DNA of 14,282 bases, taken from contig JAFSZQ010000043.1 of assembly GCA_017458885.1 (NCBI GenBank), positions 1-14,282 of the forward strand. Direction: 5' to 3'. Position numbers and translations under genes: made by a program. Source of the DNA: Oscillospiraceae bacterium (GTDB lineage: Bacteria; Bacillota; Clostridia; Oscillospirales; Oscillospiraceae). Below, in pieces: positions 6,654 through 12,702 of this stretch (position 1 is the stretch's first letter; every line of letters starts with the position of its first letter). The notes under the pieces are model-generated. The model saw only the letters and a list, made by a program, of their open reading frames with translations, had not been told where the DNA came from and ran no database searches.

Positions 6654-6670
6654 CGGCGAAGCCGCGCCGC

Positions 6671-6706
6671 CAAAACAAAAGACGCCTTACGGCGTCTTTT
6701 GTTTTG
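6671..6706 (-). terminator. Intrinsic terminator of ssrA
   Basis: Stem GACGCC / GGCGTC (6691-6696 with 6681-6686) around a 4-nt loop, followed on the minus strand by TTTTGTTTTGG. The A-rich stretch before the stem is complementary to the T-tract, making a 17-bp perfect palindrome (6670-6686 with 6691-6707). Its outer end includes the last bases of the encoded CCA at the tmRNA 3' end, so termination follows directly after mature tmRNA. Confidence 0.9.
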
Positions 6707-7054
6707 GTGGAGGCGAGGGGAGTTGAACCCCAGTCCGAAAGTGCTTTAACAGGACTTTCTCCGGGCGCAGTCCGGTTTTAAGGCTTCCCCCCGCGCAAGG
6801 ACGCCGGACAGACCTTGCGTTTCGGTAGAGTCATGATGCGTGGGCGGGTCAACTCTTTCCCGCCTCACGGACGCCGCTGAATGACGCCTTCCCCGAGCCG
6901 CGGCGCTTTCAGGTCAGACGGCTGCCGCAATCAGGCGGCAGCAAGAACAGTTTCGTTGTTGTTCTTTAATTTATAAGTTGCCCGTTTTATGGCGGTCAGG
7001 CGCCGCCGCCCGCTGATCCTGCCTCCACACCCCCGTCGAAACCGGTACGCCCCC
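6705..7054 (-). ncRNA. ssrA: Transfer-messenger RNA (tmRNA)
   Basis: Rescues stalled ribosomes together with SmpB and tags the unfinished protein for proteolysis. On the minus strand the 5' end reads GGGGGCGTACCGGTTTCGAC, the tmRNA hallmark. The 3' end has a T-arm GGGGTTCAACTCCCC and CGCCTCCACCA. GGGGGCG pairs with CGCCTCC as a 7-bp acceptor stem with one G-U, leaving discriminator A and an encoded CCA. The length of 350 nt is typical of one-piece tmRNA. A pseudoknot-like GGCGG...CCGCC lies near the 5' side. The tag frame runs to a TGA at 6933-6931 and its coded end is NNNETVLAAA. The exact resume codon is uncertain: AAC at 6963 or the AAG before it. The last Ala codons form a GCTGCCGC/GCGGCAGC stem with the stop in its loop, as in helix 5. 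It lies 38 nt after ppiB with no visible promoter of its own. Confidence 0.96.
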
Positions 7055-9810: not shown

Positions 9811-10515
9811 TTGGAACAGAAAAAGCGCGTCCTCATCGTGGAGGACGAGAAGAATATCGTGGACATCATCCGCTTCAACCTGAACCGCGAGGGCTACGAG
9901 ACGCTCGAGGCGTACGACGGCGAGACGGGTCTTGCGCTTGCGCGCGCGGAAAAGCCCGACCTCATCCTGCTCGACGTGATGCTGCCGAAGCTGATCGGCT
10001 TCGACGTGTGCAAGGCGCTGCGCGGCGAGGGCGACAACGTCCCTGTCATCATCCTGACCGCGCGCGAAGAGGAGGAGGACAAGGTGCTCGGTCTGGAGCT
10101 GGGCGCGGACGACTATATCACCAAGCCCTTTTCGATGCGCGAGCTGATCGCCCGCGTGCGCGCGAACATCCGCCGCACGGCGATGGCGGCGCCGTCCGCG
10201 CCGGAGCGCGGCATGAGCGCCGGCGGCGCGCTGACGATCGACACGGCGGCGAACCAGGTCTACAAGAACGGCGCGCCGGTGGAGCTGACGCTGCGCGAAT
10301 ACGAGCTGCTGACGTTCCTCGCGAGCCACCCCGACAAGATCTTCTCCCGCGTTGACCTGATGGAGCAGGTGTGGAACTACGGCTACGTCGGCGACGACGC
10401 CCGCACGGTGGACGTGACGGTGCGCCGCCTGCGCGAGAAGATCGAGGACGACCCCAGCGAGCCGGCGTATATTTTGACGCGCAGGGGCGTGGGGTACTAT
10501 TATTCGGCACGTTGA
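9811..10515 (+). CDS. walR: WalR-like OmpR/PhoB-family response regulator
   Basis: DNA-binding response regulator; in Firmicutes WalR controls autolysins and wall metabolism and is usually essential. The 234-aa protein has a receiver domain (1-~118) with acidic pair E11-D12, phospho-acceptor D55 in LLDVMLP, switch residues T83 and Y102, and K105 in TKPF. A winged-helix domain follows (~135-232) with VDVTVRRLREKIEDDPSEP and a TRRGVGYYY end, very like Bacillus WalR. The identification also rests on walK, walH-like and walI-like genes downstream; PhoB/PhoP is the alternative. The start is TTG at 9811, with AGGAGG 6 nt upstream. It is 18 nt after the nudix gene and shows no promoter of its own, so it is probably read from the GDPD promoter. 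A 411-bp insert separates it from walK. Confidence 0.9.
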   Translation: MEQKKRVLIVEDEKNIVDIIRFNLNREGYETLEAYDGETGLALARAEKPDLILLDVMLPKLIGFDVCKALRGEGDNVPVIILTAREEEEDKVLGLELGADDYITKPFSMRELIARVRANIRRTAMAAPSAPERGMSAGGALTIDTAANQVYKNGAPVELTLREYELLTFLASHPDKIFSRVDLMEQVWNYGYVGDDARTVDVTVRRLREKIEDDPSEPAYILTRRGVGYYYSAR

Positions 10516-10534
10516 AGGTACGAACGCGACCCCA

Positions 10535-10562
10535 TTTCTTCTTTCTCTTGCGAAAGAAGAAA
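10535..10562. repeat. Left end of the element, also a local palindrome
   Basis: TTTCTTCTTTC (10535-10545), loop TCTTGC (10546-10551), GAAAGAAGAAA (10552-10562): perfect 11-bp arms. Because of this symmetry the right end of the element matches it both inverted (longer, including the non-symmetric loop) and directly (about 15 nt, GAAAG-AAGAAACGG). In RNA it would form an AU-rich hairpin 20 nt after the walR stop codon. Confidence 0.7.
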
Positions 10563-10865
10563 CGGTGTCGCCCGCCAAAGAGAGAAAACGCTTTTGCGGC
10601 GGCGTTTCTGATGACTTATGGATTTCCGTGTCTAATTTCCGCTGTTTGCCCGTACGGGTTGGCATTTGCTACCCCTTATTCGACGTTGTCGTAAAGCGAA
10701 GAGACGCAACAACGCGCTGGTATCCCAAAGAGCGGCAGCGGACCGTAGACGCACCGTCAAATCGTCTCACGGGAAACAGCGTCGCATAGGCACAGAGGCG
10801 TTGCCGGTCAGCACAATGCCGGTAAGCGTCTTTCCTTCTACGGAAGTCTGAAACCAATTCATCCG

Positions 10866-10886
10866 TTCGCAAGAGAAAGGAAGAAA
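10866..10886. repeat. Right inverted repeat of the element
   Basis: TTCGCAAGAGAAAGGAAGAA plus one further A. The reverse complement matches 10535-10554 except for a single inserted base. It ends 40 bp before the walK start, just upstream of the ribosome-binding region. Confidence 0.65.
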
Positions 10887-10926
10887 CGGTTTCAGGAATC
10901 GCCCTGCGAGGAAAGGAGGCGTCCCC

Positions 10927-12702
10927 ATGTTCCGCTCGCTGCACATGAAGCTGGTCATGATCCTCGTGCTGCTCGTCACGTCGCTGATGGCGGTCGTGGG
11001 CGCGTTCCTGATGACCAGCGTCACCAACTTCTATATCGACGACTTCTATACGCAGATGAACGAGGCGTTCTCCGACGCCTCGTTTTACGCCGCGCTGGAG
11101 ACCGAGGCGGCGCAGGAGGACGGCGAGCAGCGGCTCCAGTCGCTGCTCGAGCTTTATGCCGGCACGCTCGGCATCGACTCGCGCAACCGCAACTACTACA
11201 TCCTCGACGCCGACAGCGGCGCGTTCCTCGCCGGCAGCGACGAGACCGCGGGCGCGGCGCTGGAGCAGACCGCGAACATCCTCGCCGCGCGCAACGGCGA
11301 GGTCGGCTCCGAAAGCGACCTCGCCGCGGGCTACATGGACGTGGCGGTGCCCGTCTCCGGCGGCGACAACCACTTCATCGTTTACATCCGCGACGACCGC
11401 GCCACGGTCTCCGAGCTCAACGGCGAGCTGCTGCTCATCATTTTGCAGGCGCTGCTGGTCGGCCTGCTGGTGTCCGTGCTTTTGAGCTTCCTGCTCGCCA
11501 AGACCATGATCGACCCCATCGAAAAGCTGACCGAGGGCGCGGAGCGCATCGCGGGCGGCGACTTCGACGAGGAGCTGGCGGTGGAGTCCAACGACGAGAT
11601 CGGCATCCTCACGACCACGTTCAACGACATGGCGAGCGTCCTGCACGACACGCTCGACGCCGTGGAGAACGAGCGCAGCAAGCTCGACGCGCTGTTCCTG
11701 CACATGACGGACGGCGTCGTCGCCTACGACGGCGTGGGCAAGCTCATGCACTGCAACCCCGCCGCCGTCGCGCTGCTGGATCGCGCGCCGGAGGAGTGCG
11801 TCTACGCCGACCTCTTCGAGCCGATCTGCCCGTTCTCCCGCGTGATGGCGATGCGCCGCGGCGACTACGCCGAGGCGGAGCTGACCGTCGGCGAGCGTTC
11901 GGTGGAGCTGTACTTCGCGACGTTCTCCGACGAGGAGGCGGGCGGCGTGCTGATCGTGCTGCACGACGTGACCGAGCGCCGCCGCACGGAGGAGCGGCGC
12001 AAGGAGTTCGTCGCGAACGTCAGCCACGAGCTGCGCACGCCGCTGACGAACATCCGCTCCTACGCCGAGACCATCCGCGACGCGGAGGGCGGCATCCCGC
12101 GCGAGACGGAGGACGGGTTCCTCGACATCATCATCAACGAGGCCGACCGCATGACCCACATCGTGCAGGACCTGCTGACGCTCTCGCGCCTCGACTCGGG
12201 GCGCACGGAGATGGTCATGGCGCGCTTCGCCTTCGGCGACGCGATCGACGCCGTGCTCCGCTCCATCGCGCTCGAGGCGCGGCGGCACGGGCACACGCTC
12301 ACGAACGACCGCCCCGAGCATCTGCCGCTCATCATGGGCGACCGCGGGCGCGTCGAGCAGGTCATGCTGAACATTTTGAGCAACGCCGTCAAATACACGC
12401 CCGACGGCGGGCACATCCGCGTCACCGCGGGCGACGCGGGCGACAAGGTCTGGATGGAGGTCGCGGACGACGGCATCGGCATCCCGAAGGGCGACCGCGA
12501 CCGCATCTTCGAGCGGTTCTACCGCGTGGACAAGGCGCGCTCGCGCGAGTCCGGCGGCACGGGGCTGGGGCTGTCCATCGCGTCGGAGATCGTGCAGCGG
12601 CACAACGGCTCGCTCGCCATCGTCGACCGGGACGGCCCGGGCACGACCGTGCGGCTGGAGCTGCCGGTGTCGCAGGCGGAAGGGCAGGAAGCACTGCTAT
12701 GA
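10927..12702 (+). CDS. walK: WalK-like sensor histidine kinase
   Basis: Membrane histidine kinase expected to phosphorylate the WalR-like regulator in response to cell-wall state. The 591-aa architecture is TM1 (~8-30), an extracytoplasmic sensor domain (~31-167), TM2 (~168-192), HAMP (~193-245), a PAS domain (~252-350), the dimerisation/phospho-acceptor helix with FVANVSHELRTPLTN (361-375; H367), and the ATPase domain. That domain has the N box around N486, DDGIGIP (514-520), FERFYR (529-534 region) and GGTGLGLS (543-550). The HAMP-PAS-HisKA order is that of WalK. PhoR is the closest alternative, but walH/walI-like genes follow. The ATG at 10927 has AAAGGAGG 7 nt upstream. The stop overlaps the next gene as ATGA. 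Separation from walR by the repeat element is unusual, since the pair is commonly only tens of bases apart. Confidence 0.92.
   Translation: MFRSLHMKLVMILVLLVTSLMAVVGAFLMTSVTNFYIDDFYTQMNEAFSDASFYAALETEAAQEDGEQRLQSLLELYAGTLGIDSRNRNYYILDADSGAFLAGSDETAGAALEQTANILAARNGEVGSESDLAAGYMDVAVPVSGGDNHFIVYIRDDRATVSELNGELLLIILQALLVGLLVSVLLSFLLAKTMIDPIEKLTEGAERIAGGDFDEELAVESNDEIGILTTTFNDMASVLHDTLDAVENERSKLDALFLHMTDGVVAYDGVGKLMHCNPAAVALLDRAPEECVYADLFEPICPFSRVMAMRRGDYAEAELTVGERSVELYFATFSDEEAGGVLIVLHDVTERRRTEERRKEFVANVSHELRTPLTNIRSYAETIRDAEGGIPRETEDGFLDIIINEADRMTHIVQDLLTLSRLDSGRTEMVMARFAFGDAIDAVLRSIALEARRHGHTLTNDRPEHLPLIMGDRGRVEQVMLNILSNAVKYTPDGGHIRVTAGDAGDKVWMEVADDGIGIPKGDRDRIFERFYRVDKARSRESGGTGLGLSIASEIVQRHNGSLAIVDRDGPGTTVRLELPVSQAEGQEALL

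Follow-up and report, generated by a model that had tools for sequence, protein, structure and literature searches.

The class II tract order of intrastrand triplex motifs, read as class IV on the complementary strand, consists of a pyrimidine tract, a purine tract that is its reverse complement, and a third purine tract that is the mirror of the second. The PIT / boxC / TM-ECO repeats are the closest described example. In the part of the account by Holder et al. (2015, PMC4666352) that we draw on, the main motif is G/C-rich and highly conserved in sequence, has short loops, and is not linked to mobile elements; a stable triplex of the E. coli motif in vivo is unsupported there. With the best-studied motif so highly conserved, its sequence can hardly reveal whether selection has acted on a triplex or on the letters themselves. 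Other repeats of related design are the MITEs and the REP/BIME and TIRtron families, the latter two with RAYT/TIRYT tyrosine transposases (Di Nocera et al. 2013, PMC3733652).

Here we describe a repeat from an Oscillospiraceae bacterium (assembly GCA_017458885.1) that lies between genes resembling walR and walK. On balance, we read the segment as one decayed copy of a foldback element that is both dispersed and mosaic, and the ends of which would have been kept able to form an intrastrand triplex by selection.

A dispersed repeat between walR and walK

The window is the whole 14,282-nt stretch of contig JAFSZQ010000043.1 that was analyzed. Within it, the two flanking genes were named by their best NCBIfam models (YycF and WalK), both of which scored below their cut-offs. 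The original prediction was that this gene pair is separated by a low-GC gap of about 352 bp with inverted ends. The gap is real, with walR ending at 10515 and walK starting at 10927, and the sequence at 10535–10555 is identical to the reverse complement of 10866–10886 save for one inserted base, the perfect inverted pair within these arms being 14 nt. A GC count of 29/60 at 10621–10680 was reproduced, and the element as a whole has 53% GC (walR, 65%; walK, 68%). The gap also appears to hold no gene, as had been stated, since its open reading frames are either short or long antisense frames of the flanking genes. The predicted limits needed revision: the inverted arms sit inside terminal hairpins (10526–10571 and 10848–10895), and the repeat extends over approximately 10520–10905. 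The parts of this copy and its flanks are as follows.

9811–10515, + strand: flanking walR-like response regulator, with Response_reg and Trans_reg_C domains
10520–10905 (outer limits approximate), unstranded: whole repeat copy between walR and walK, placed by homologous places in its own genome, by a profile and a covariance model of the ends, and by congener spacing
10520–10525, + strand: outer motif of the 5′ end, from the upstream composition of 70 anchored ends, among which this end's type is absent (missed by the anchor)
10526–10571, + strand: 5′ terminal hairpin, from family covariation; basal stem 10526–10533/10564–10571, pyrimidine arm 10535–10545, loop 10546–10551, purine arm 10552–10562
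10572–10576, + strand: linker of the 5′ end, from sequence
10577–10591, + strand: third (mirror) purine tract of the 5′ end, in which just 5 of the 9 positions tested fit its hairpin
10640–10688, unstranded: interior module common to other copies, from own-genome matches
10713–10781, unstranded: interior module common to other copies, most of it also present in congener G008 beside different ends
10826–10841, − strand: third (mirror) purine tract of the 3′ end, in which all 9 positions tested fit the outer pyrimidine arm
10842–10847, − strand: linker of the 3′ end
10848–10895, − strand: 3′ terminal hairpin, with a decayed inner arm (2 of 9 tested positions mispaired)
10896–10905, − strand: outer motif of the 3′ end
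10927–12702, + strand: flanking walK-like histidine kinase, with HAMP, HisKA and HATPase_c domains

The window's own copy is thus degenerate at both ends. At about 386 nt, non-coding and with inverted terminal repeats, it has the form by which a MITE is recognized. A separate strong, nearly perfect hairpin at 6667–6710 of the window has no visible likeness to the repeat and is possibly a terminator.

Seventeen places in the source genome match the segment, itself included, and seven of the 16 others do so at E 8.1e-52 or better. The source assembly is only 0.92 Mb (64% complete) and several of its contigs start or end inside copies, so the true copy number is probably above 17. Copies lie at or next to a terminus of contigs C67, C63, C152, C26 and C54, so assemblies seem to break at the repeat. 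When 60 genomes were searched with the DNA sequence, 11 gave matches, all of the same genus, two of which (G008 and G012) had interior pieces only. With a covariance model of the ends, at least 11 of the 18 genomes of the genus carried ends among the best first-look candidates. Among the genomes searched, the sequence form of this segment is confined to one genus. A 19-nt end pattern found 44 stretches in a named genome collection. Thirty-two came from seven assemblies labeled Oscillospiraceae, Ruminococcaceae or Clostridia, two of which are titled as sheep rumen or roe-deer abomasum; the 12 from other records scored below 23 bits with the end profile or were unscored, and look like chance. 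Phage and plasmid records gave no blastn match to the window's copy, and the single match of a pattern scan of viral_contigs (L087) was discarded because there is no hairpin there. Elements with two ends span 320–1253 nt in a list of 36, which includes some duplicate entries and some truncated where a contig stops.

Some of the larger elements hold small genes. The frames enclosed include an HTH_3 regulator beside a short protein (L037:1781–2292), similar short proteins at L066:2762–2935 and in L025, and a 188-aa protein with CxxC motifs and a membrane-family match below cut-off (L051:5353–5919). Other short proteins in larger copies (57 and 62 aa, and a 58-aa frame; L058 is among these loci) had no Pfam match over cut-off. 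An S10-Clostridia ribosomal leader was found at the Rfam gathering score at L058:4013–4084, outside the repeat.

Comparison of the walRK locus among congeners revealed the empty site. Of 17 congeners with walK, 16 have both genes, and the gap between the tblastn hits is 37–66 nt in 12 of these. That these 12 have no more than 66 nt here indicates that the segment is an insertion in this lineage. The remaining four gaps are 89, 136, 253 and 285 nt; the 253-nt gap of G006 carries the end of a different family member, and the other three hold other sequence. No family end was recognized in the 285-nt gap, which belongs to G009 (L089).

Other sites also vary between relatives. An 11-kb region of G002 has two sites that are missing in relatives: site 2 holds no element in G004, and site 3 holds none in G009, G006 or G000 (the source assembly) and a remnant in G004. 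At site 4 of the same region, the source assembly is short and other genomes have other sequence. Both G002 and G004 carry an element at each of two further sites. At one of them the middle of the element differs; at the other, the 3′ hairpin and its tract differ together while the interior is nearly identical. At this second site the 5′ tract differs too; that of G002, located at a contig start, misfits its hairpin. These sequence comparisons show interiors and ends to be exchanged between copies, the element being a mosaic. A second, different right end was present in 6 of the 11 G006 copies read. In this type, a triplex-type left end is followed on the right by a small AAAACC/GGTTTT hairpin, a CTTTT-type hairpin and a GC hairpin; it was seen at L134, L141, L143, L144 and L148 (G006) and at L044, L055, L069, L078 and L083.

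Co-variation of three tracts at the repeat ends

Read inward, each end consists of an outer motif and a basal stem of 8 bp, then a pyrimidine arm and a purine arm joined by a short loop, a linker of 5–6 nt, and a second purine tract. In its family form the outer motif, outside the hairpin, is roughly purine-rich and then has CG and T. The second purine tract mirrors the inner purine arm and is, equivalently, the straight complement of the outer arm; the ends thus show the class II/IV tract order. Profile searching gave 198 hits in loci of the genus, same-place repeats included, from which 106 distinct ends were parsed. The profile and covariance model used to find ends include the third tract, so that its A-richness is selected for and its G positions hardly at all.

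The two arms of the hairpin co-vary. Pairing was observed in 97.2% of cells (82.6% in shuffles); 140 cells had changed on both sides, compared with 40.3 in shuffles, and 6 on one side only. The covariation score was 0.487, compared with 0.196, and two of five hairpin measures (double-change pairs and number of pair types) were no higher than in shuffles.

The third tract follows the hairpin in mirror order. Among 74 distinct ends (5 unparsed ends dropped), the mean longest shared mirror run was 9.97, compared with 6.73 ± 0.19 after tracts had been reassigned among the ends; in direct order the mean was 7.74 (6.41 in shuffles) and in inverted order 3.65. In 29 further ends, fetched afterwards (12 unparsed ends dropped), the mirror run was 11.59, compared with 7.22 ± 0.39, and the direct run 8.62, compared with 6.63. 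That direct order also exceeds its shuffles, less strongly than mirror order, reflects the purine-richness of the tracts. In a fixed register, the tract and the outer arm agreed at 93.4% of positions at shift 0 and at 45.7–56.1% at shifts 1 to 4. Within-genome shuffles of 105 ends from 9 genomes gave 74.8% ± 1.5 (1000 shuffles; best, 80.6%), compared with 95.8% observed. Tract positions 1–2 do not follow the mirror rule, and they were excluded from the score after this had been seen. A match of at least 80% over 9 positions was found in 100 of the 105 ends. The five exceptions include the 5′ end of the window's copy; the 5′ end of L048, which lies at a contig start, also breaks the rule.

Position by position, T-A-A and C-G-G triples replace each other. 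All three strands agree in 893 of 945 cells; where agreement is broken, the odd strand is the tract in 34 cells, the inner arm in 12 and the outer arm in 6. The mirror relation is kept in 18 stem classes within the genus. In 15 elements with two different ends, the 30 comparisons gave the tract's own hairpin as the better fit in 28, with one tie and one case against. Because the tract follows its own hairpin, service to a long-range stem between the two ends was ruled out as the source of the mirror. A strict triple scan of the 848,289 bases fetched (overlaps included, hits not unique) gave 147 hits, all at these ends, and none in one resampling. Wobble, used as a strand test, showed base-adjacent types A-C and G-T both to be common (36 and 39 of 106).

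The same design in other genera and families

Searching 120 genomes of the family with the end model recovered ends in other genera, with 41 matches in the complete genome G117 and 38 in G158. A second model, applied to 394 genomes of the order with the best 12 candidates per genome, extended the range to at least 14 genomes in four families. Outside the genus, the basal stems and arms differ and the design is kept.

With the register fitted rather than fixed, 82 of the 87 matches examined outside the genus fit the mirror fully. The 87 comprised 36 of the 41 matches in G117, 28 of the 38 in G158, both of those in G095, and 21 of the 31 that belong to families f10, f15 and f19, with one place in G307 (L264, L275) counted on both strands; the single match in G036 was left out. 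The fit was full in 36/36 for G117, 28/28 for G158, 1/2 for G095 and 17/21 for the three families, where most arms have a single C and therefore give little power to separate mirror from direct order. Among the five misses, one was unparsed, three had one mismatch, and one was poor. Shuffled tails, generated for G117 and G158 only, gave a full fit in 0 of 1280. Together with the register shift and the within-genome shuffles, this rules out the mirror run as a chance product of purine-rich sequence. In G117, which has two stem classes, the tract of an end's own class matches at 10 of 10 positions and that of the other class at 7.

One locus of family f19 (L254) has no partner end visible in the stretch read, so the mirror can exist without a long stem. 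The G117 loci L206–L225 contain similar foldback elements of 500–870 nt, each with a terminator-like stem at mid-length and flanked, beyond its ends, by further small hairpins.

Explanations and comparison with known systems

An intrastrand triplex requires a mirror repeat, and copying gives direct or inverted repeats; this is the basis of the triplex reading. Each end would fold within one DNA strand into an intrastrand triple helix kept by selection, with the purine motif on the inward-reading strand and the pyrimidine motif on its complement. More speculatively, the folded, inverted ends might be recognized by a trans-acting enzyme that mobilizes or exchanges the element. The linker, as fitted outside the genus and partly composed of basal stem, is 9–20 nt, longer than the 1–6 nt of the ITxF loop rule. 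A/T-rich purine-motif triplexes are weak.

The alternative that survives best, though we think it rather unlikely, is a MITE-like element of the ordinary kind, with hairpins at its ends and a mirror tract that is kept for protein binding, by a mutational process, or by exchange of whole ends as blocks. Block exchange does occur, as at the orthologous G002/G004 site where the 3′ arm and tract have changed together; it spreads an existing relation but does not create that relation in 18 stem classes and once more in further genera, where the basal stems differ. Template switching yields inverted or direct copies, not mirror ones.

An RNA element, the transcripts of which would fold as a triple helix that protects or insulates neighboring messages, is less probable still. 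By eye, with genes unannotated, several copies begin right behind a stop codon or end just short of a ribosome-binding site, and RNA can form pyrimidine-motif triplexes according to the part of PMC4666352 used here. The same source, within that part, has purine-motif triplexes as impossible in RNA, and it is this version that what is, by eye, the likely sense transcript of L254 carries. G-U intermediates are also few in the hairpins (6 one-sided cells against 140 double changes), and Rfam 15 gave no match at the gathering score in the element, either in the window's copy, where the best was far below, or in the copies of seven loci. The RNA fold of the element is stabler than shuffles on both strands (z −4.6 and −4.1), which is expected of any foldback repeat and is no sign by itself of action as RNA.

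The original prediction had offered, beside a MITE-like family, a structured RNA at walRK that would govern the WalK:WalR ratio. Although operon position and the stable fold speak for it, this last alternative is highly improbable and largely refuted by congener spacing: the segment was not found between the two genes in any of the 16 congeners that carry both, and G006 has a different family member there. The gap showed zero promoter-like sites and a single terminator-like one, on the minus strand, which does not exceed shuffles. A single conserved walRK copy with compensatory changes was not what emerged; compensatory changes are present, but in the ends of the whole repeat family, and they involve three strands. 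The copy at walRK probably only lengthens the walR–walK gap. The mobile-repeat half of the prediction stood, with many dispersed copies with conserved ends in the source genome and its congeners, though with neither a target duplication nor an enzyme found.

As to mechanism, the inverted and structured ends, the dispersal in many copies and the empty sites are suggestive of a mobile element that is moved in trans; recombination or replication is a possible alternative route of exchange. We advance tentatively, as somewhat short of an even chance, the fuller proposal of a new foldback mobile element spread across an order of Clostridia, moved in trans, with ends that are recognized as folded single-strand DNA triple helices. 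On that proposal, the three-way co-variation of the tracts would be natural comparative evidence of a bacterial triplex under selection. Target duplications in 24 and 18 complete elements, the outer limits of which are uncertain, were nothing above random pairing. No transposase was recognized inside the elements examined, the largest of 1.25 kb, and no autonomous copy was found among them, the larger elements holding small frames. Y1 (HUH) transposase genes numbered zero in the element's own genome (64% complete), in 16 of 17 congeners (G004 included), and in G117 and G158; the exceptions were one partial match in G014 and one full match in G307, of another family. RAYT/IS200 mobilization was rejected because Y1 genes are wanting in element-rich genomes. 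Reverse-transcriptase mobilization was rejected as well: RVT_1 is absent from G117 and G158 and has no consistent presence in the genus (4 of 11 repeat-bearing genomes; 5 of 7 others).

The repeat resembles MITEs in short size, inverted ends, dispersal, empty sites in relatives and the non-coding window copy, and differs from them in its mosaic interiors and hairpin-shaped ends, and in that no target duplication, parent element or transposase was found. Since it works like a MITE and fails the duplication test, we call it MITE-like. Like pneumococcal BOX elements, it is a mosaic of exchangeable modules, a likeness at the level of description. With REP/BIME and TIRtron repeats, as covered in the part of Di Nocera et al. 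(2013, PMC3733652) used here, it shares palindromic, extragenic, often paired inverted units; it differs in its longer, variable hairpins and in the element-rich genomes G004, G117, G158 and its own, where no Y1 transposase was found.

Triplex motifs at the ends of mobile elements had no earlier report among the literature matches listed, and the placement of the motif at repeat ends, together with the three-way co-variation, appears to be new here. Because the mirror is kept while the letters change, matched and mismatched natural variants are available as ready-made test constructs. The PIT / boxC / TM-ECO repeats, in what we draw on of PMC4666352, and the present repeat are both intergenic, multi-copy and variable between relatives, and both place a pyrimidine tract, a purine tract and a third purine tract on one strand as class II, with class IV on the other. 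The present motif is set apart by being A/T-rich, by its position at inverted repeat ends, by a basal stem and a longer linker, and by tracts that co-vary.
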